A stretch of DNA of 64,000 bases from NCBI RefSeq assembly GCF_004331735.1, contig NZ_SJSO01000007.1, positions 310,001 through 374,000 on the forward strand. The letters are read 5' to 3'. The first letter of the stretch is position 1, and each line of letters starts with the position of its first letter. The notes beneath the pieces are model-generated. The model saw nothing but the letters and a program-made list of their open reading frames with translations, ran no database searches and was not told the origin of the DNA. The position numbers and the translations under genes are program-made. Shown piece after piece: positions 1,931 to 9,660 of this stretch. Source of the stretch: Pedobacter psychrodurus (lineage in GTDB: Bacteria > Bacteroidota > Bacteroidia > Sphingobacteriales > Sphingobacteriaceae).

Positions 1931-2815
1931 ATGATTATGAAAAACGAATTTAAAGGATTAATTGTACAAGGAGATAAGAAATTTTCTATAAAAGACCATA
2001 AAACAGATTTTACTGGCGGTTATAATAAAGAAAAAGCTAAAGATGCATTGGTGAATTCGAAAATAGAGCTAGATCATTTGCAGGAGAAATTATATGCATC
2101 TGGAAAACATTCTGTTCTGATTATTTTTCAGGCCATGGATGCTGCTGGGAAAGATAGTGCGATTGAACATGTAATGAGCGGACTAAATCCGCAGGGATGC
2201 CAGGTGTATAGTTTTAAAGTGCCAACATCAGAAGAATATGAGCATGATTTTTTGTGGAGACATTATAAAGCTTTGCCAGAACGTGGCAGGATAGGTATTC
2301 ACAACCGATCGCATTATGAAAACGTTTTGGTTTGTAAGGTACATCCCGAATATATTTTAAGTGAAAATATCCCAGGCTTTAATGATGTAAAAAAGATCAA
2401 TAAAAACTTTTGGCAGCAGCGTTATAAGAGCATTAAAAACTTTGAGGAACATTTAACGGCTAACGGGACTGTAATTTTGAAATTCTTTTTAAACGTGAGC
2501 AGGGATGAACAAAAACAACGCTTTTTAGAACGTATAGATGATCCTACTAAAAATTGGAAATTCTCTTCCGGCGATATTAAAGAAAGGGCATTGTGGGATA
2601 AGTATATGGATGCCTATCAGGATGCGATTAACGAAACTAGTACAGCAGAATCGCCTTGGCACATCATACCTGCCGATAAAAAATGGTTTGCACGGCTGGC
2701 AATAAGTGAAATTATTGAAGATAAATTAAAAAGCCTTGATCTGAAGTTCCCTATTTTGGGTGAAGAGGAAGTGCTTAAACTTGGCGAAACCAAGAGTATC
2801 TTATTAAGTGAATAA
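1931..2815 (+). CDS. Polyphosphate kinase 2 family protein (class III type)
   Basis: Nucleotide phosphotransferase that uses inorganic polyphosphate as phosphate donor. Class III members phosphorylate AMP and ADP, so the enzyme probably regenerates ADP/ATP in the cytoplasm. The Walker A-like stretch QAMDAAGKDSAIEHVMSG begins near residue 67. It is followed by the NPQG and SFKVPT segments and by the NRSHYENVL lid motif near 125, all typical of PPK2. At 294 aa it matches the usual single-domain length. Two start codons are possible (1931 and 1937, giving MIM...); no strong ribosome binding site decides between them. The stop lies only 3 bp from the 3' end of the convergent RNase P RNA. Assignment to class III rather than I is inferred from the NRSHYE context. 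Confidence 0.93.
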   Translation: MIMKNEFKGLIVQGDKKFSIKDHKTDFTGGYNKEKAKDALVNSKIELDHLQEKLYASGKHSVLIIFQAMDAAGKDSAIEHVMSGLNPQGCQVYSFKVPTSEEYEHDFLWRHYKALPERGRIGIHNRSHYENVLVCKVHPEYILSENIPGFNDVKKINKNFWQQRYKSIKNFEEHLTANGTVILKFFLNVSRDEQKQRFLERIDDPTKNWKFSSGDIKERALWDKYMDAYQDAINETSTAESPWHIIPADKKWFARLAISEIIEDKLKSLDLKFPILGEEEVLKLGETKSILLSE

Positions 2816-2818
2816 AAA

Positions 2819-3212
2819 AATGCAGGTCTATAAGCCGGGTTCTGTTTCCTGATTGCTCAGGATTTCTATCATTTATCCACTATAAACGTTGCCGTTTATC
2901 TCTAACGACCTACCCACTAACATCGGACGGGCAGCCCTTTATCCCGACGTAAAGTCGGGACGTTAGCCTATTTGGTCTTTCAACTCTCGGGGTTTACAAA
3001 CCACTACAGTCGCCTGTAATGCTCGTGCGCTCTTACCGCACGTTTTCACCCTTACTCCGATAAATCGGGGCGGTATATTTTCTGTTGCACTAATCCGTAA
3101 TTCAGGTTTTCATTCCTGAACCCCTTTCCGTTAGAAAGCGAGATGCCCTGCGTTGCCCGGACTTTCCTCTCTCCCGGTTTTACCCGAAACAGCGATAGAA
3201 CAACCTGCATTT
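2819..3212 (-). ncRNA. rnpB: RNase P RNA, bacterial type A
   Basis: Catalytic RNA of RNase P, which trims tRNA 5' leaders. On the minus strand the conserved 5' block GAGGAAAGTCCGGGC (complement near 3162-3176) and the 3' block ACAGAACCCGGCTTAT (complement near 2829-2844) form the P4 core. The ends AATGCAGGTTGT and ATAGACCTGCATT pair as helix P1 and set the boundaries, giving about 394 nt. A T-run follows the 3' end and overlaps the end of the convergent PPK2 gene, so termination may be shared. Ends are good to a few bases. Confidence 0.95.
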
Positions 3213-3269: not shown

Positions 3270-3692
3270 CTATTTACAATTCTGCAAATGTTTTGAAACC
3301 TGCGAGTAAGGTACGAAACCCTGCTTATTGCCGAACGAATTGGTGATATAAACCATTACCTGTGCTACATCTATATCGGCAAGTTCGGGGAAGGCTGGCA
3401 TTTTTTCTTTGTATTCTTTCCCATGGATCATTAAAGATTCGTTTGCGCCGTTTTTGATGAAACAAGCTAATCGATTTTTGTTTGTTTTTAAGAAAACTGA
3501 ATCCGTTAATGGAGGCGCAAGCTGACCTAATCCCTCACCATTTTCACCATGGCAATTCTGGCACTTAGCTTTATAAATATCTTTTCCATTCGACATGTAG
3601 TTTTGTAGATCGATAGTTTCTTGGTTTTGGCAGGAAATGATGATGGCAATTATAAAAAGAAAAAAGACGGAGTTGATGATGTACTTGCGCAT
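3270..3692 (-). CDS. Monoheme cytochrome c lipoprotein
   Basis: Small periplasmic electron carrier of 140 aa. A lipoprotein signal (lipobox cysteine about Cys21 in IISC) is followed by one heme-binding motif CQNCH at 44-48. A methionine-containing C-terminal part (KEYKEKMPAFPELADIDV) probably supplies the axial ligand. The pattern matches class I cytochromes c that donate electrons to oxidases or peroxidases. It is the last gene of a same-strand series with Sco, YHS, MauG/MbnH-like and MbnP-like proteins, 152 bp after the Sco gene. That gap holds a palindromic element, so it may be transcribed separately. The electron partner is unknown; the neighbouring di-heme peroxidase is a candidate. Confidence 0.9.
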   Translation of the reverse strand: MRKYIINSVFFLFIIAIIISCQNQETIDLQNYMSNGKDIYKAKCQNCHGENGEGLGQLAPPLTDSVFLKTNKNRLACFIKNGANESLMIHGKEYKEKMPAFPELADIDVAQVMVYITNSFGNKQGFVPYSQVSKHLQNCK

Positions 3693-3710
3693 TGATGTTT
3701 TGCTGTAGAA

Positions 3711-3832
3711 ATCGTCATTTCGAACGGAATGAAATGGAGCTGAGAAATCTTTTGCATTGATTATATATAGATTTCTCTCCCGAAAGTTCGGGACTGCACT
3801 TCATCCGATAGCTATCAGATCGAAATGACGAT
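3711..3832. repeat. Composite intergenic palindrome (CGTCATTTCGA type)
   Basis: The outer arms are a perfect 13-bp inverted repeat, ATCGTCATTTCGA (3711-3723) and TCGAAATGACGAT (3820-3832). Nested inside are GAGAAATCT (3742-3750) and AGATTTCTC (3769-3777), a CCCGAAAGTTCGGG hairpin and a CCGATAGCTATC hairpin. The layout recurs at 33659-33768 and 39741-39845. It lies between two codirectional genes and contains no ORF. Confidence 0.85.
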
Positions 3833-3844
3833 TAAATTATAACT

Positions 3845-4495
3845 CTATTTATTATACTCCGCCAATAAAACTGGAATATCCTTTTTCAATTGTTCTACCT
3901 GTTCTTCTTTAGTACCATCATAAGCTCCGCGGATATGCCTGTCTTTGTCTATTAAAACCAAATAACCTTGATGAATGTAGCCATCTTTTGCCGTGCTGTC
4001 TTCACCAACGGCCACTAAATAGTTTTTCTCGGCCAAAGTATAAACGCTGTCTTTACTGCCATAAAGAAATAGCCATTTCGAACCATCTACGCCAAGTTTT
4101 TGTGCGTATTTTTTTAAAACACTAGGCTTATCATATTTAAAATCGATAGTGTGTGATACAAACATCACATCAGGATTGAGTTTAAATTCACTGAAAACCG
4201 TTGCGAGGTTTCGGTGCATGGTAGGGCAAATGGTTGTACAAGAAGTAAAGAAGAAATCGGCTATATAAACTTTGCCATCAGTGGCTTTGCTTGTTGTTAC
4301 CACACTATCTTGGTTTAAGAAAGACCAATCAGGAATGGTTTGATAAACGGTATCAATTTTCTCTACACCTGCTGCATCTCTAACGGTTTCGGCATGGCGC
4401 TCTCCGTAAAAAGGAAGTTTTCTTTCTTGTTTACAAGCAGTAAATATAGAAACTGCCAGTAGGGAACTAGCAAGGTAAGCAGTAATTTTGTTCAT
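3845..4495 (-). CDS. SCO1/SenC family thioredoxin-fold protein
   Basis: Periplasmic, membrane-tethered copper chaperone or thiol reductase of the Sco family, usually needed to build the CuA site of cytochrome oxidase. The 216-aa protein has a lipobox (TACK, Cys21), the metal/thiol motif C-TTI-C-P at 86-90, and a later histidine in YIHQGYL that fits the third copper ligand. The length is typical. It sits in the MbnP/MbnH-like cluster between the YHS and cytochrome c genes, which supports a copper role. The gap to the YHS gene is 150 bp and holds a degenerate heptamer array. Confidence 0.93.
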   Translation of the reverse strand: MNKITAYLASSLLAVSIFTACKQERKLPFYGERHAETVRDAAGVEKIDTVYQTIPDWSFLNQDSVVTTSKATDGKVYIADFFFTSCTTICPTMHRNLATVFSEFKLNPDVMFVSHTIDFKYDKPSVLKKYAQKLGVDGSKWLFLYGSKDSVYTLAEKNYLVAVGEDSTAKDGYIHQGYLVLIDKDRHIRGAYDGTKEEQVEQLKKDIPVLLAEYNK

Positions 4496-4558
4496 GATTT
4501 TATTTTAAAAATGTAAATATACAAGGTATTTTTCTTAAGAAATTAATTGTTTGGAAAA

Positions 4559-4600
4559 GTCTGAGGTCGGGAGTCCGGAGACCGAGGTCTGGATGCTCAA
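4559..4600. repeat. Degenerate heptamer array (GTCnGGA-like)
   Basis: Six consecutive 7-bp units are visible: GTCTGAG, GTCGGGA, GTCCGGA, GACCGAG, GTCTGGA, TGCTCAA. They are noncoding and lie between the Sco and YHS genes. The same 7-bp period appears at 4936-5032 and, with a different motif, inside lysA. Confidence 0.7.
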
Positions 4601-4645
4601 ACAATTTGACTCCATAGCTTTTAACTTCGGTCTTCTGCCGATCAA

Positions 4646-4906
4646 TTACTTTTTAACATACTTAGTAGGTTCTGCCACAAACTTTTGTTTACAGCTTTCT
4701 GAACAAAAATTATAGATAACTTTATTGTAAACGGTGGTTTTCGATGCACCAGCTTTCACCTTCATTTTGCAAACTGGATCTACCAATACTTTCTTTGCTG
4801 AATCGATCAGGGTTGTTTTTGATCCGCTGATTGTTGCGTTGGCATTTGATTTTACTGCTATTGTTACTAATCCAATTAGGACTATTACAAGATTTAATTT
4901 TTTCAT
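4646..4906 (-). CDS. Exported YHS-domain protein
   Basis: An 86-aa protein with an N-terminal signal peptide (about residues 1-24) and one YHS domain. The domain starts at DPVCKMKV and ends with NFCSESCKQKFVAEPTKYV. YHS domains bind metal through their conserved cysteines and occur in copper ATPases and copper resistance proteins. Here the CxxxC of FCSESC and the Cys of VCKM are all present. The context (Sco-like and MbnP/MbnH-like genes) suggests periplasmic copper binding, which is inference. It is separated from its neighbours by repeat-bearing gaps. Confidence 0.88.
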   Translation of the reverse strand: MKKLNLVIVLIGLVTIAVKSNANATISGSKTTLIDSAKKVLVDPVCKMKVKAGASKTTVYNKVIYNFCSESCKQKFVAEPTKYVKK

Positions 4907-4935
4907 TTTGAATTTCCTTTGATTGATTTTTTTTA

Positions 4936-5032
4936 GGTTCCGAGATCAGTAGTCGGAATTCCGAGGTTAAAGCGTATAAGGATTTGCTTTTTACGCTTCC
5001 GACATCGGACCCCTGACCTCTGACTTTCTGAT
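4936..5032. repeat. Two heptamer arrays flanking a hairpin
   Basis: The left array (4936-4970) reads GGTTCCG, AGATCAG, TAGTCGG, AATTCCG, AGGTTAA. The right array (4998-5032) reads TCCGACA, TCGGACC, CCTGACC, TCTGACT, TTCTGAT. Between them AAGCGTA and TACGCTT pair as a 7-bp stem. The two arrays are roughly reverse complements, so the whole can fold as a long imperfect hairpin between the YHS gene and its upstream neighbour. Confidence 0.65.
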
Positions 5033-5035
5033 TAT

Positions 5036-5467
5036 TTATTTAACTTGATATACTTTTATCAATGAATCTGATTCTCGTGTAACCTTAATATAGCTATCTT
5101 CAACAGCCCTGATTTTGATCATTTCAGATTTGTAATAGTCCAGATCTTCTTTTTCTGTTTTTCCCTTAAAATCATCTTTAAAGAAATGCATCCAATCCAT
5201 CATCTTTTCATCAGCAGCATTTAACTGAGTAATTAATTTACCAATTTTTTGCTTTTGTACAGCTGAATCTGGAGAAAGTTTAATCTGATCTGAAACCAAG
5301 AGCGTATCTAATTTCATTTTATTCTTAATTACCTTTTCGCCATCAATCATCAATTTATCATGGATATTTAATACTTCCTGGCGAACTGCTTTGGCATCGG
5401 GTTCTGTTTTGCAGGAAATAAACAAAGCGGTTACGAAGCATAACATTGCAATATTTAATCTGTTCAT
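5036..5467 (-). CDS. Helical lipoprotein of unknown function
   Basis: A 143-aa protein with a lipoprotein signal (lipobox FISC, Cys19) and a body predicted to be almost all helix: long heptad-like charged stretches and no prolines in the middle. A methionine- and tryptophan-rich patch, KMMDWMHFFKDDF, is near residue 88. I do not recognise an enzymatic motif. It lies 11 bp after the CxxCxC outer-membrane gene on the same strand, so the two are almost certainly cotranscribed. Its job is unknown; metal binding through the Met patch is only a guess from context. Confidence 0.85.
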   Translation of the reverse strand: MNRLNIAMLCFVTALFISCKTEPDAKAVRQEVLNIHDKLMIDGEKVIKNKMKLDTLLVSDQIKLSPDSAVQKQKIGKLITQLNAADEKMMDWMHFFKDDFKGKTEKEDLDYYKSEMIKIRAVEDSYIKVTRESDSLIKVYQVK

Positions 5468-5478
5468 ATTCTTTTGAT

Positions 5479-6456
5479 TTAAAAATTATAAGTAATTCCA
5501 ACATAAACCTTTCCAGCACTCATCGGATGATCGGTTTCGGCCTCCCAAATGTTTTTTTGAACCCCAGCGTTTAATGCTACATTTTTATAGAAAACATCTA
5601 TACCTGCGCCACCCATCAAGTTATTCATGACATGTTCTCCTGTTTTTTGGCCATTGTATTTTTCTCCGCCAGAATACTCGTAAAAGAACTGAGCAGAAGG
5701 CATCACTTGAACGTCCTTGCCAATCCTTTGCGTGTAAAAAATATTCAGAAAACTGGTGGTACTGTTGGCAATACCTTCATCACGGCTATTCGTTCCGTTA
5801 ACCTTATAAGAAGTATTTAAACTTGCGCCAAATTTACCTAAGCCCACCATATAGTTTAGGTATATAAAACCATCGGTACTTCCTGTTCCGGCCTGCATTA
5901 GCGATGAATAACGGATACCTGCTGTATTTTTAAAATCATTTTTGCCAGTGGGCAACTTTATACCGGCACCAGCAACTAATTGTTGTTTGAAATTATCTTC
6001 TAATTTTTGAACGAGATGATAACCCGCATACAGATTGATATCACCGATGCTCGAAATAGAAGAAGTATAACCATTGTAGCGTTCGCTATTGGAAACATAA
6101 GGTAAAATAGCATTGATTTCGAGTTTGCTATTGATGAAATATTTCCCCCTGATTTCTAAGGAGCGGTAAAGCTCATAATCACTGGGATTGCCTGCGTGAT
6201 TAGTTATTGGCGAATCCTGACTTCGTGCGGGAATAAAGAAATTTCCTCCATTCGGGAATAAGGAATGCGATTGTCCTTCATAACCACTAAATGAGCGGTA
6301 GCGATACAAAAGACTAATGCTGTTGCGGTTATAATAGGGGGTGATCCCCATGAAGCAGCCGCATATATCGCAGGCGAAAACCTGACTGCTCATGAGTACG
6401 AAAACTAAAATCAATAATTTACGACTCGCTGTATAGTGTGTTTTTGATAAATTCAT
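5479..6456 (-). CDS. Outer-membrane beta-barrel-like protein with N-terminal CxxCxC
   Basis: A 325-aa exported protein. After a signal peptide ending about residue 28 comes CDICGC (Cys29, 32, 34), then a series of alternating hydrophobic/polar strands ending in an aromatic C-terminus (VGITYNF). That profile fits an outer-membrane barrel of about 12 strands. The CxxCxC right after the cleavage site would face the periplasm and could bind copper or another soft metal. The start codon lies inside the end of the upstream peroxidase gene (38-bp overlap), implying translational coupling. A porin or transport-related role is inference. Confidence 0.87.
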   Translation of the reverse strand: MNLSKTHYTASRKLLILVFVLMSSQVFACDICGCFMGITPYYNRNSISLLYRYRSFSGYEGQSHSLFPNGGNFFIPARSQDSPITNHAGNPSDYELYRSLEIRGKYFINSKLEINAILPYVSNSERYNGYTSSISSIGDINLYAGYHLVQKLEDNFKQQLVAGAGIKLPTGKNDFKNTAGIRYSSLMQAGTGSTDGFIYLNYMVGLGKFGASLNTSYKVNGTNSRDEGIANSTTSFLNIFYTQRIGKDVQVMPSAQFFYEYSGGEKYNGQKTGEHVMNNLMGGAGIDVFYKNVALNAGVQKNIWEAETDHPMSAGKVYVGITYNF

Positions 6457-7456
6457 GGTCTGTTAATGTTTTTAAAAAGGCTTTAATCTGCTCTTTTTCT
6501 GTGGTATTTAAAGGGATGCCAGTTTTCAATTGCGCATCAAGATTTGTTGAGGCTTTTACACCAGAATTGTAATGTTCCAAAACCTCATCCAAGCTATAAA
6601 ATCGGCCATCGTGCATGTATGGGCTCGTATATTCGATGTTGCGTAAAGTAGGTACACGGAACTTTCCGAAATCTGAAGCTGCGCCCGTAATGTGCGACCG
6701 TCCTTCATCTGTACTTACTAAATCCAAGCCATTATTGCGGTAAGAAAAATCAGTAAAAAATGGCTCTGCGTGACAAGAGGTGCATTTTTCTTTGAAGAGG
6801 TTATAACCTGCTAGTTCGGTCGAAGTAAAAGCAATGCCACTCTCTTTACGTATTACTTTATCGTATTTCGAATTGCCTGAAACCAATACCGCTGTAAATT
6901 GAGCAATCGACTTTAAAATCACCTGTGAGTTAATTTCTGTTGAACCAAAAGCCTGTTTAAATAAATCAGGATAAGGCGCTGTGTTTTTCAGAAATGCAAT
7001 GATGGTTTCTATATTCGTTCCCATTTCGCAGGCATCGGTAATGGCATTCAATGGCGAAGTTTCGATGTTTTTTACACCACCATCCCAGAAGAATGCTTTT
7101 TGCCAGGCCAGGTTAAAAAGTGGAGGGGTATTCCGTTTTCCCTGGCAGTTGTTTACACCGTGGCTTACCTTATGGTCGAGTTGGGTAAATGCTGCAAATT
7201 GCTGATGGCAGCTTCCGCAAGAAACGCTTTTATCGGCCGATAATCTTCCTTCATAGAATAATTTTTTACCCAGCGTAAAACCCGCATTGCTTAATTTATT
7301 GTCTTCGAAATTATATGCCGGGGCAGGGAAGTTGGCCGGAACCGAAAAAGTAATTTTCTTCTCTTCGGGCGTTACTTCATCTTCATTCTTGCTACAGGCA
7401 TACATCAACGCAATGCTTAAAAAAAGCATTGCGAAGACAGTTATTTCCCTTGACAT
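6419..7456 (-). CDS. Di-heme cytochrome c peroxidase family protein (MauG/MbnH-like)
   Basis: A 345-aa periplasmic lipoprotein (lipobox YAC, Cys21) with two c-type heme motifs, CGSCH at 80-84 and CTSCH at 225-229. Spacing and length fit the bacterial di-heme peroxidase/MauG superfamily. Classical members reduce hydrogen peroxide; MauG and MbnH instead use a high-valent di-heme state to oxidise a partner protein. The upstream neighbour is an MbnP-like protein, whose stop is adjacent (no intergenic base), so this is probably the MbnH-type member. I cannot assign the distal heme ligand from sequence alone. The downstream barrel gene overlaps by 38 bp. Confidence 0.93.
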   Translation of the reverse strand: MSREITVFAMLFLSIALMYACSKNEDEVTPEEKKITFSVPANFPAPAYNFEDNKLSNAGFTLGKKLFYEGRLSADKSVSCGSCHQQFAAFTQLDHKVSHGVNNCQGKRNTPPLFNLAWQKAFFWDGGVKNIETSPLNAITDACEMGTNIETIIAFLKNTAPYPDLFKQAFGSTEINSQVILKSIAQFTAVLVSGNSKYDKVIRKESGIAFTSTELAGYNLFKEKCTSCHAEPFFTDFSYRNNGLDLVSTDEGRSHITGAASDFGKFRVPTLRNIEYTSPYMHDGRFYSLDEVLEHYNSGVKASTNLDAQLKTGIPLNTTEKEQIKAFLKTLTDHEFIKNTLYSES

Positions 7457-8227
7457 TTAGTTGTGGATGTGATCTAACCGAAATAAGCCATTTGCATAGT
7501 TATTGGCTACAATTACAGAATTTGCTCCACCCATAGTAAAATATAATGTAGAGAAACTAATATCGGTTTTTCCTGTAAATAACGCAGCCGCATTCACGAT
7601 AAAGTGCATATTTGGTTTTCCATCGGTTCTCACACGAAGTGGATTTGCAGCATTAATTTCAGTAGTGAATGTTCTGATTGTATTATTTGGATCAGTAACA
7701 CCACCAATGTGAAAGGTAAGTGCATTTCCAGTTGCTGCTGATTGTGGCGAAGTTCCCTCTAATTTAACAAATATGTAGCCGCTGTTCCATGTCCAGAACA
7801 TGCCGTTAATCGGATCTAAAGCTCCTGTTTGTGCACCTGCGAAATTACGGGCATAATCTACACCTATAGTGTATTCTATTTTAGTATAATCGCCTGTTGG
7901 CACATCTTTTAATGTAATGTTTGTTGATTCTGCTTTAGAGGCATCGATTAAAAAATAGCTTTCAGGAATGAGATAAGTTGTACCATCGGCTTTGCTTAAT
8001 TTGATATTGCTTACATAGTATTTAAATACGTTGATCTTAAAATCTTCGCCTTTGGCATTTTTGTAAGATGTGGTATTTAAAACTAATGGACTTCCGTTTA
8101 CCTGGTTTTCGAACTCAATAGAGAAGGTAGATTTGGTATCTGCGGTAACTTCGTCGGTATTTTTTTTACAAGAAGACAATAATATAACAGGGCATAACAA
8201 TGCCAAAAAGTATGTTGAAATTTTCAT
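7457..8227 (-). CDS. MbnP-like lipoprotein
   Basis: A 256-aa lipoprotein (lipobox SSC, Cys20) resembling the MbnP family: a strand with FEN.VNG near 39, the block KINVFKYYVSNIKL near 63, and the tryptophan motif GMFWTWNSGYIFVKLEG at about 142-158 (Trp145, Trp147). In methanotrophs MbnP binds copper and MbnH converts one of its tryptophans to kynurenine. This gene opens the series and abuts the di-heme gene directly, which repeats the MbnP-MbnH pairing. Assignment rests on motif memory plus context. Whether the tryptophan is modified here is unknown. Confidence 0.85.
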   Translation of the reverse strand: MKISTYFLALLCPVILLSSCKKNTDEVTADTKSTFSIEFENQVNGSPLVLNTTSYKNAKGEDFKINVFKYYVSNIKLSKADGTTYLIPESYFLIDASKAESTNITLKDVPTGDYTKIEYTIGVDYARNFAGAQTGALDPINGMFWTWNSGYIFVKLEGTSPQSAATGNALTFHIGGVTDPNNTIRTFTTEINAANPLRVRTDGKPNMHFIVNAAALFTGKTDISFSTLYFTMGGANSVIVANNYANGLFRLDHIHN

Positions 8228-8275
8228 TTTAAGGAAATTGGATAAATAAAATATTTAAGAAATTCTAATACGGCT

Positions 8276-8366
8276 CGTCATGCTGATCCGATAGCTATCG
8301 GATTTAATTCAGCATCTTGAAAATACATGATAGACCCTGATCCCGATTTATCGGGACATGGTGACG
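8276..8366. repeat. Composite intergenic palindrome
   Basis: Short CGTCA/TGACG ends (8276-8280, 8362-8366) enclose a perfect 18-bp palindrome ATCCGATAGCTATCGGAT (8286-8303) and a TCCCGATTTATCGGGA hairpin (8341-8356). It separates the small cysteine-rich gene from the MbnP-like gene and belongs with the other CGTCA-ended elements of the window. Confidence 0.75.
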
Positions 8367-8389
8367 ATCGCAAAAAAAAGAAGATTTAC

Positions 8390-8761
8390 TTAAACCGCTT
8401 TCGGTGGATGAAAAATAAAGATAGAAAGGTCTCTAACCGGTTTTTCGATGTAAAGATTTTCTGAAGTAATAATGAAATAGGGAAGATGATGGTTTACGGC
8501 TACAATCTGAAATCTAGGTTCAGCCTCTGCAATTCTTTTAAGATTTTCTTGAGCCTGTTTGTTTTTCCCATCAAGGTCTTTCAGTTTTTTGGCTAAGAAA
8601 CACTGTCCATCACAATGTAATTCTGGGTGTTCTTTATTAATACAGAATACACTTGTGATGTATTCTTTGTTCATTTTATAACCAGAATATATGACTAATT
8701 GCATGGCACCGTTAGAAACGGTACATGTGATGATAAGATATATTAAGAATTTTTTGAACAT
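8390..8761 (-). CDS. Small membrane-anchored protein with Cys-x9-Cys-x3-Cys cluster
   Basis: A 123-aa protein with one N-terminal hydrophobic segment followed by VFCINKEHPELHCDGQCFLAKK, where three cysteines with two histidines nearby could form a metal or disulfide site. The C-terminus ends FHPPKAV. I start it at MFKKFLIYL (8761); an upstream in-frame ATG at 8803 adds 14 residues that weaken the signal-like N-terminus. It precedes the MbnP-like gene on the same strand, 162 bp away across a palindromic repeat. The function is unknown; a link to the metal cluster is inferred from position only. Confidence 0.8.
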   Translation of the reverse strand: MFKKFLIYLIITCTVSNGAMQLVIYSGYKMNKEYITSVFCINKEHPELHCDGQCFLAKKLKDLDGKNKQAQENLKRIAEAEPRFQIVAVNHHLPYFIITSENLYIEKPVRDLSIFIFHPPKAV

Positions 8762-8849
8762 GGTATTGCGCTGCAAAAGTATTAAAGAAATTGGTTGCAG
8801 CAAAGAAAAAATAAGAAAGTCGCAGATTTCTTATTTCTAAGGATCAGTT

Positions 8850-9224
8850 TTAAACTTTGTATAGTTTGAAATTTTCCAGAAATTTAAAATCCTTAAGATT
8901 TAATGTGTAAAGTTCTAGATCATGAAATATTGATGTAGATGCAATTAAAGCATCGGGCAGATTAAGATTATGTGATAAAGAAAACTGTTCAACCAGCTTT
9001 ACTGCTTGGGTAGATATTGGTGAAGAAATTGGCAGAACAATTAACTTTTCTATATCTTTTCTGATCAGATTTAATTCTCTTTTATTTCTCGCTCCATAAA
9101 GTAATTCTGCACAAGTAACATCAGAAATAGCAACATTATCCTGACCAATTTTTTCAAAGATCTCAATGATTAAATCATTGCCCTTATAAATTTCGATAAA
9201 GATGTTTGTATCACATAAAACCAT
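8850..9224 (-). CDS. PIN-domain ribonuclease toxin (VapC-like)
   Basis: A 124-aa PIN-domain protein, probably the toxin of a type II toxin-antitoxin pair that cleaves RNA with divalent metal. The acidic PIN residues are visible: Asp in LCDTNIFIE, Glu in TCAELLYGA, and Asp in NLPDALIAS, with a final acidic position in TLNLKDFKFL. The start at 9224 overlaps the antitoxin stop as TAATG; an alternative ATG 12 bp upstream is possible. One-base coupling to the antitoxin is typical of these modules. The target RNA is unknown. Confidence 0.92.
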   Translation of the reverse strand: MVLCDTNIFIEIYKGNDLIIEIFEKIGQDNVAISDVTCAELLYGARNKRELNLIRKDIEKLIVLPISSPISTQAVKLVEQFSLSHNLNLPDALIASTSIFHDLELYTLNLKDFKFLENFKLYKV

Positions 9225-9433
9225 TACCTGTTCCAAGCTTTATCTCTAAGTTCTGCTGAGTTAACGCTGTAGTCACTCCAAATGCCTTTAGATAAAGAAA
9301 ATTTGGTCGTTTTTGTTGATTTCTTTGAAGATGTGGTTCTTAGTTCAGCATCAATATCCCATGATTTTAGAAAAGCTAACAAGGCATCAATTTTATTTTG
9401 TTCTACATTATCTTTTAAAATTATCTCTGTCAT
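9224..9433 (-). CDS. Putative antitoxin of the PIN-domain module
   Basis: A 69-aa protein encoded directly upstream of the PIN toxin and overlapping it by one base. The N-terminus (MTEIILKDNVEQNKIDALLAFLKSW) looks like a strand plus helix. The basic central part (SSKKSTKTTKF) and the C-terminal GIWSDYSVN-type tail suit a short antitoxin whose tail inserts into the toxin. A longer in-frame reading from 9532 exists, but its extra residues are low-quality and the ATG at 9433 is preferred. Assignment rests on position and size. Confidence 0.82.
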   Translation of the reverse strand: MTEIILKDNVEQNKIDALLAFLKSWDIDAELRTTSSKKSTKTTKFSLSKGIWSDYSVNSAELRDKAWNR

Positions 9434-9660
9434 AGGTCTATTCTTTAGTGTGTGTAAATATACGCAATCTATTTTTATTGATGGATTTTGCATCTGATGT
9501 TTTGTTTTTTGCCACAGAATCACGGAAGGCATGAAAAATTTTCTTTATGTTTCTTCCTCCGTGTTAATTTGTGTTTCTGTGTCTAAAGATTTCTATGATT
9601 CACTACGCTTAGTCGAAGCAACGGCCATCCTTTGAGATTGTTTGCAATCCACTCATAAAC

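Follow-up and report, generated by a model that had tools for sequence, protein, structure and literature searches.

A conserved leader-MbnP-MbnH-barrel operon of Bacteroidota with a putative role in copper supply

Little is known of how bacteria that lack methanobactin move copper across their outer membrane, and the question is raised by a gene cluster of Pedobacter psychrodurus in which an MbnP-like lipoprotein gene abuts an MbnH-like di-heme enzyme gene. The cluster lies in a stretch of 64,000 nucleotides (nt) of contig NZ_SJSO01000007.1 (the window), where an initial annotation had placed it at 3270-8227 and read it as a copper system with a tryptophan-modifying enzyme. We found its seven open reading frames (ORFs) in place, on one strand and listed as they are transcribed, starting at 8227 and finishing at 3270; the end point at 8227, by contrast, comes too early, since a leader ORF at 8390-8761 also belongs to the operon. 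Copper handling that involves a tryptophan-modifying enzyme, outside the methanotrophs, is the interpretation with the most support from these sequences, borne out in part by the fold that MbnP shares with Protein Data Bank (PDB) entry 7l6g, the profile match of the enzyme to entry 6e1c, its Tyr296, and copper-gene neighbors at other loci. More specifically, we lean modestly towards a copper-supply operon of Bacteroidota that would couple kynurenine-based capture of copper with a copper switch acting on a nascent chain. The overlooked leader gene is the most informative part of this operon.

The leader and its upstream signals

The anatomy and conservation of the operon can be read directly from sequence comparison. 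All coordinates are positions in the window, and the operon is on the minus strand, transcribed from high to low numbers. Its first ORF (labeled UPS; 8390..8761, 123 amino acids) has a hydrophobic N-terminus, C40, a C50xGxC54 motif, and the C-terminal sequence IFHPPKAV, and neither Pfam nor NCBIfam holds a family that it matches better than chance. A promoter-like site, TTTG-N19-TACTTTTG (8774..8804), stands on the same strand 12 nt before its ATG, and a gap of 162 nt (8228..8389), containing palindromic stretches and lacking the tested promoter-like motif, separates it from the MbnP gene.

For comparison, 120 stretches around matches to the MbnP family PF20243 were collected and the window's first 20 kb added to them; the resulting 121 stretches, together with 80 named loci and a further 24, supplied 170 distinct leaders. 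CxGxC and PP occur together in 168 leaders and PP in all 170, with C40, C50, G52, C54, P119, and P120 invariant in 37 aligned relatives. The sequence between the Cys motif and PP is variable and its length nearly constant, at 61 to 72 residues (median 65, standard deviation 2.0; 168 leaders). PP lies 1 to 9, mostly 2 to 4, residues from the C-terminal end (168 counted). Among the 170, the residue just before PP is His 100 times and Arg 32 times, and Phe stands at position -2 in 131. A hydrophobic N-terminal segment is present in 155/168.

Upstream signals were sought as TTG/TAnnTTTG, which we take to be the Bacteroidota promoter consensus and on which the 8774..8804 site was called. The full motif, TTG-N17-23-TAnnTTTG, precedes 59 of 168 leaders (mono-nucleotide shuffles: mean 1.9, maximum 6) and 5 of 169 control genes, and TAnnTTTG precedes 117 of the 168 leaders (shuffles: mean 17.5, maximum 27). 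The gaps behind the leaders (n = 149) are depleted, with 0 full motifs and 4 TAnnTTTG vs 1.9 and 15.7 in shuffles; leader starts were set by rule and the sequences are related, and neither these nor the promoter counts are independent. Since the motif ends 4 to 13 nt ahead of the start codon in 49 of the 59, the leader message is probably almost leaderless. A sigma-70 scan, which does not cover Bacteroidota promoters, gave 13 promoter-like sites against a shuffle mean of 21.4 and was set aside.

This architecture recalls CruR of Bordetella and CutF of Rhodobacter, likewise short exported ORFs with a Cys motif, a near-terminal PP, a fixed spacing, and copper genes after a gap behind the ORF. 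In CruR, copper relieves an arrest at RAPP and Rho then ends transcription of a TonB transporter, with the motif spacing kept to one or two residues (PMC9426467) and the arrest demonstrated in vitro (PMC12992588); CutF is opposite in effect, serving a multicopper oxidase and acting with copper present (PMC9973294). Unlike either, the leader has no DUF2946 match; its Cys motif is CxGxC with a further Cys upstream rather than CXXC, its Pro motif is [IV]F[HR]PP rather than RAPP, and 61 to 72 residues, not 45, lie between the two. Bacteroidota account for 19% (40% normalized) of 5,334 catalogued CutF-like proteins (PMC9973294), and the window leader is probably among them.

Could the leader product instead be a working periplasmic metallochaperone, first in the operon by gene order only? 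The Cys motif and export signal would suit a chaperone equally well, and CutF was initially taken for one (PMC9426467). Moreover, inspection by eye of 26 leader-MbnP gaps from Pedobacter and near kin, which vary in length and sequence and are intruded upon by dispersed palindromes, made no conserved RNA fold or stem-loop evident. However, the Cys-PP length is nearly fixed despite the variable sequence between, PP sits as close to the end as in CruR, and a promoter-like site right before the leader is paired with a long gap after it, which leaves the chaperone an unlikely explanation.

Short palindromes (TCCCGATAAATCGGGA, CCGATAGCTATCGG, and alike) occur in the window at 3045-3070, 3820-3760, and 8220-8350, and the same palindromes, dispersed repeats, are found in the corresponding gaps of other Pedobacter.

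The barrel and the surrounding genes

Profiles found 132 MbnP genes in 115 of the 121 stretches, and the 6 stretches without one were dropped; GC-rich Hymenobacter loci, where naive ORF calling missed genes, were left out of the 115-locus counts. An MbnH-like gene is next on the same strand for 130 of the 132, so the adjacency in the window is not due to chance. The leader stands directly before MbnP at 69/115 loci, a beta-barrel gene directly after the MbnP/MbnH block at 73/115, and both at 62/115. Median distances are 131 nt from leader to MbnP (n = 109), 1 nt from MbnP to MbnH (n = 199), and -4 nt from MbnH to barrel (n = 125). Leader-by-barrel counts per locus are 74/29/9/3; co-evolution of the two is not significant on a tree of 113 MbnP, reduced from 128 by removing sequences more than 85% identical.

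In the window the barrel gene (5479..6456) overlaps the MbnH gene by 38 nt. Its product carries CDICGC (residues 29-34) at the predicted mature N-terminus, in agreement with the CxxCxC outer-membrane protein annotated there; all of 78 relatives have C29 and C32, and 90% have C34. The predicted structure, with a predicted local distance difference test score (pLDDT) of 80.6 that falls below 50 for residues 20-40, including CDICGC, is closest by Foldseek to the 12-strand channels FapF (5o65, E 6e-10) and COG4313 (4rl8, E 3e-9). In contrast to these, with which it shares its fold, the window barrel has the CxxCxC N-terminus, and its closest relatives are linked near-exclusively to MbnP: each of the top 22 barrel-profile matches in 198 genomes of the phylum (at least 246.9 bits) lies within 2 kb of MbnP, and the next two (203 and 194 bits) adjoin a leader gene without MbnP. 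Leader-barrel loci without MbnP often have a barrel without CxxCxC (L277 and L281), suggesting that the motif belongs to MbnP-linked and some other barrels. A Phenol_MetA_deg Pfam match was found in 3 of 24 members; the window barrel and the lipoprotein behind it have no Pfam match at E<=0.01. Termini of such barrels are usually periplasmic.

The barrel is associated with a His-x-His-like tail of MbnP, found at 72 of 77 loci with a barrel and 1 of 38 without. Both features are present at 72 loci and neither at 37, with barrel only at 5 and tail only at 1 (59/39/14/1 by gene on the MbnP tree). The association fits a hand-over of metal to the barrel, and it may mostly reflect shared descent: tail-barrel co-evolution was tried on the tree and gave 5 supported independent pairs, of which 3 agree and 0 disagree (p 0.25).

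Tandem MbnP-MbnH-MbnP-MbnH genes precede one barrel in L091, L093, L095, L096, L161, L163, L165, L167, L168, L170, L172, L175, and L176; at most of these loci only one of the two MbnP carries a tail of the His-x-His or HDHTEN kind. Another arrangement (L140, L142, L145, and L177) places a lipoprotein-like gene (c12) and then a TonB-dependent-receptor-like gene (c19) between the leader and an MbnP-MbnH pair that lacks the barrel, c12 and c19 having been assigned by eye.

A gap of 11 nt separates the barrel from the gene for a Met/His lipoprotein (5036..5467) with invariant His36, Met40, Met89, Trp92, and Met93; Cys19 and Tyr111 are likewise kept in all 29 relatives. Three annotated identities downstream were confirmed by Pfam: a YHS-domain protein (4646..4906; PF04945, 43.6 bits), a Sco-like protein (3845..4495; SCO1-SenC PF02630, 76.3 bits), and a mono-heme cytochrome c (3270..3692; Cytochrom_C PF00034, 40.9 bits). 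These genes may form separate transcription units, given the gaps of 129, 150, and 152 nt that precede them. Across the 121 stretches the leader is present in 85, the barrel in 78, Sco in 38, the lipoprotein in 29, cytochrome c in 25, and YHS in 16. The Sco genes, 45 in 1.96 Mb, compare with 1.6 expected at the density seen in 61 family genomes (219 matches, 261 Mb), the two counts having used different profiles. The RNase P RNA (2815-3211) lies just past the cytochrome c end, and directly upstream of the operon is a PIN-domain (VapC-like) ORF preceded by a small ORF (8850-9532), in the matching place of which L061 has an ORF of the same length (128 amino acids).

Leaders also occur away from MbnP. 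Among 20 such loci, five have the order leader-barrel-Sco-148/149-amino-acid gene, the last being PCuAC in both loci tested. At two tested loci the leader is followed by a TonB receptor gene, after which one of them has Sco and cytochrome c. That the leader heads barrel-Sco-PCuAC and TonB-receptor operons ties it to copper. In CruR operons, too, Sco, PCuAC, CopC, and MbnPH-like genes are found (PMC9426467).

These neighbors bear on whether the operon could be a defense against copper or another metal, turned on by excess metal in the manner of CutF, with proteins that sequester or export it. CutF acts with copper present and what follows CutF-like genes is mostly efflux or detoxification genes (PMC9973294), and the barrel has an ordinary 12-strand channel fold without energy coupling of its own. 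However, a Pfam search of the cluster proteins found no efflux pump, CopA, or multicopper oxidase family, the neighbors (Sco, PCuAC, and TonB receptors) are of the supply type, and copper represses CorA, whose copper site makes use of kynurenine (PMC3912023). We therefore regard defense as rather improbable.

The MbnP-MbnH pair

The MbnP-like protein (7457..8227) is a lipoprotein (Cys20) with W145 and W147, the tryptophans singled out in the initial annotation, in GMFWTWNSGY, the candidate copper ligand H173, and the C-terminus DHIHN. It scores 199.1 bits against PF20243 (cut-off 27), and its best matches are from Pedobacter species, at up to 95% identity. W145 is Trp in 129 and W147 in 126 of 130 relatives. 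A profile of 41 MbnP sequences matched a single PDB entry, 7l6g, the MbnP of M. trichosporium (E 2.4e-4); in this alignment GMFWTWNSG pairs with GMAWNWQAG, and H173 falls on a His. The predicted structure (pLDDT 92.4) is a clear match to the MbnP fold: Foldseek returned 7l6g at E 2.4e-10 and an unrelated entry next at E 0.066, and VIA-align gave 7l6g a Z of 18.1 (root-mean-square deviation 2.7 over 209 residues) with the next entry at 6.9. Unlike 7l6g, which is named a four-Cys motif protein, the mature window MbnP has only the lipid-bearing Cys20 and no later Cys. Lipobox-like sequences occur in 101/130 MbnP and 71/141 MbnH; a surface-export signal after the lipid Cys was considered and found unconvincing, with at least two acidic residues in 55 of the 101 and 32 of the 71.

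The MbnH-like enzyme (6419..7456), a probable lipoprotein (Cys21), has CxxCH motifs at 80-84 and 225-229 and scores 168.8 bits against CCP_MauG (PF03150). C80, C83, H84, C225, C228, H229, and E144 are present in 138/138 relatives, and Tyr296 is kept in 96% of the 138. Tyr296 aligns with a Tyr of 6e1c and with a Met that lies near the second heme in 1iqc, a cytochrome c peroxidase; MauG has an axial Tyr where peroxidases have an axial Met. Among NCBIfam models the enzyme scores highest with TIGR04039 of the MbnH family (205.4 bits), ahead of the MauG model TIGR03791 (174.7). Likewise, a profile of 30 enzymes scores 283.5 bits against 6e1c, 245.2 against 1iqc, and up to 179.4 against MauG. MauG of methylamine dehydrogenase, from the same di-heme CCP/MauG family, is a precedent for Trp modification; a MauG-type methylamine dehydrogenase partner was rejected on the NCBIfam and PDB profile scores, and the partner here is MbnP. 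A 2021 PNAS paper on MbnP reportedly describes MbnH making kynurenine on MbnP. Two genes annotated as "methanobactin export MATE transporter MbnM" (L295:5795-6964 and L297:5871-7022) match TIGR04039 with 441 and 559 bits, so that this product name looks wrong; L296 has a third gene so annotated.

The pair shares with that of methanobactin loci its adjacent gene order, WxW, the MbnP fold, and the axial-position Tyr, whereas the window operon adds a dedicated CxxCxC barrel and an F[HR]PP leader, and its two proteins score under both NCBIfam cut-offs. MbnB (PF05114, MbnB_TglH_ChrH) has 0 matches in the genome of the window, a precursor peptide gene not having been searched for, and a methanobactin operon was rejected on the absence of an MbnB-family gene. 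A di-heme peroxidase-like gene beside that of a kynurenine copper protein is also known for MopE/SACCP and CorA/CorB of methanotrophs (PMC3912023); neither MopE/SACCP nor CorA is among the PDB matches of the MbnP profile.

Alternatively, the enzyme might do no more than reduce peroxide, as a cytochrome c peroxidase, and MbnP might be an unmodified lipoprotein; 1iqc is the best PDB match of the single sequence, and PF03150 spans both kinds. The near-obligate pairing with MbnP, Tyr at the axial Met position, the ranking of TIGR04039 above TIGR03791, the profile preference for 6e1c, and the retained MxWxW argue against this, and we consider it quite unlikely.

PF20243 has matches in 78 of the 151 family genomes sampled and in 101 of 392 sampled across the phylum. 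The pair alone is already known to be conserved far outside methanobactin producers (PMC3621798), and the combination with the F[HR]PP leader and dedicated barrel appears to be a new arrangement of known parts; in the open-licence PMC literature we found no account of this operon or of the leader motif. One locus titled as a Comamonas sp. metagenome-assembled genome (L234) carries leader-MbnP-MbnH-barrel, its MbnP being 43% identical to that of Pedobacter, and is probably a misplaced Bacteroidota contig. Outside Bacteroidota, four of six plasmid matches were examined: Deinococcus has MbnP-peroxidase-x-CopC-CopD, Paracoccus has MbnP-MbnH-copper uptake protein-PCuAC-Sco-Sco, Ideonella has a DUF2946 gene ahead of MbnP, and Trichormus has no copper-annotated gene other than MbnP. 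A metal other than copper is very improbable given the copper-specific Sco and PCuAC families and CopC/CopD in Deinococcus, even though Cys/His motifs do not single out one metal, some CutF-like proteins stand at the head of nickel/cobalt genes (PMC9973294), and two of the four plasmid loci lack a copper-annotated gene besides MbnP.

A possible copper route

Under the copper-supply reading, the nascent leader would sense copper through its Cys motif and pause the ribosome at the C-terminal F[HR]PP, like the Pro motifs of CruR and CutF, such that the MbnP operon would be made under copper shortage. MbnH would then oxidize one Trp of MxWxW in MbnP, through a high-valent di-heme state, to kynurenine, which is predicted to sit on the peptide GMFWTWNSGYIF. 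The modified MbnP would bind copper, with H173 as a candidate ligand. From there copper could pass to the His-x-His tail of MbnP and the CxxCxC N-terminus, probably periplasmic, of the dedicated barrel, after which the Met/His lipoprotein, Sco, and cytochrome c could relay it to cuproenzymes such as CuA oxidase. We infer the sensing, arrest, kynurenine, copper binding, flow direction, and hand-over from protein families, motifs, and gene order; the weakest link is the direction, uptake rather than export.

Several observations weigh against this scheme. Profile searches, suggested by the initial annotation as a check of the pair, agree in Pfam and fall short in NCBIfam: MbnP scores 59.8 bits against a TIGR04052 cut-off of 140, which files it in the broader Pfam family and not in the equivalog, and the 205.4 bits of the enzyme are below the TIGR04039 cut-off of 362.85. 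Alone, the enzyme sequence of the window prefers 1iqc (136.4 bits) over 6e1c (129.1). H173 is not universal (117/130 relatives). DUF2946 (PF11162) matches 0 of 37 leader members at E<=0.01, a same-strand gene lies upstream of 120/170 leaders, 41 within 60 nt (by crude start calls), and the leader is not tied to MbnP, as it occurs in 79 of 198 genomes of the phylum, many without MbnP. The YHS, Sco, and cytochrome c genes are set off by their long gaps and present in a minority of loci. Finally, a second Sco-like match lies near cox2, so the window Sco need not serve that oxidase; it is the strongest PF02630 match of the genome (E 4.6e-21, the other listed matches being 5e-6 and weaker), and the idea that it is the only Sco was dropped, the genome having four such matches.

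More tentatively, and with doubt prevailing, the leaders could form an arrest-peptide class of Bacteroidota's own, with a CxGxC sensor and [IV]F[HR]PP 61 to 72 residues apart on a nearly leaderless message, switching several copper-supply operons in common: MbnP-MbnH-barrel, barrel-Sco-PCuAC, and TonB receptor. A kynurenine-copper MbnP would feed the CxxCxC mouth of the barrel through its C-terminal His-x-His tail, giving copper an entry to the cell that is independent of methanobactin.

If the copper-supply reading is true, a large culturable phylum would gain a defined copper route with a protein-derived kynurenine ligand, in which the barrel and the His tail would have their places explained. 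The leader would stand beside CruR and CutF as a second class of nascent chains that sense copper, distinct from them in sequence and open to comparison with them, and it could be used as a genome-mining flag for copper operons of Bacteroidota.

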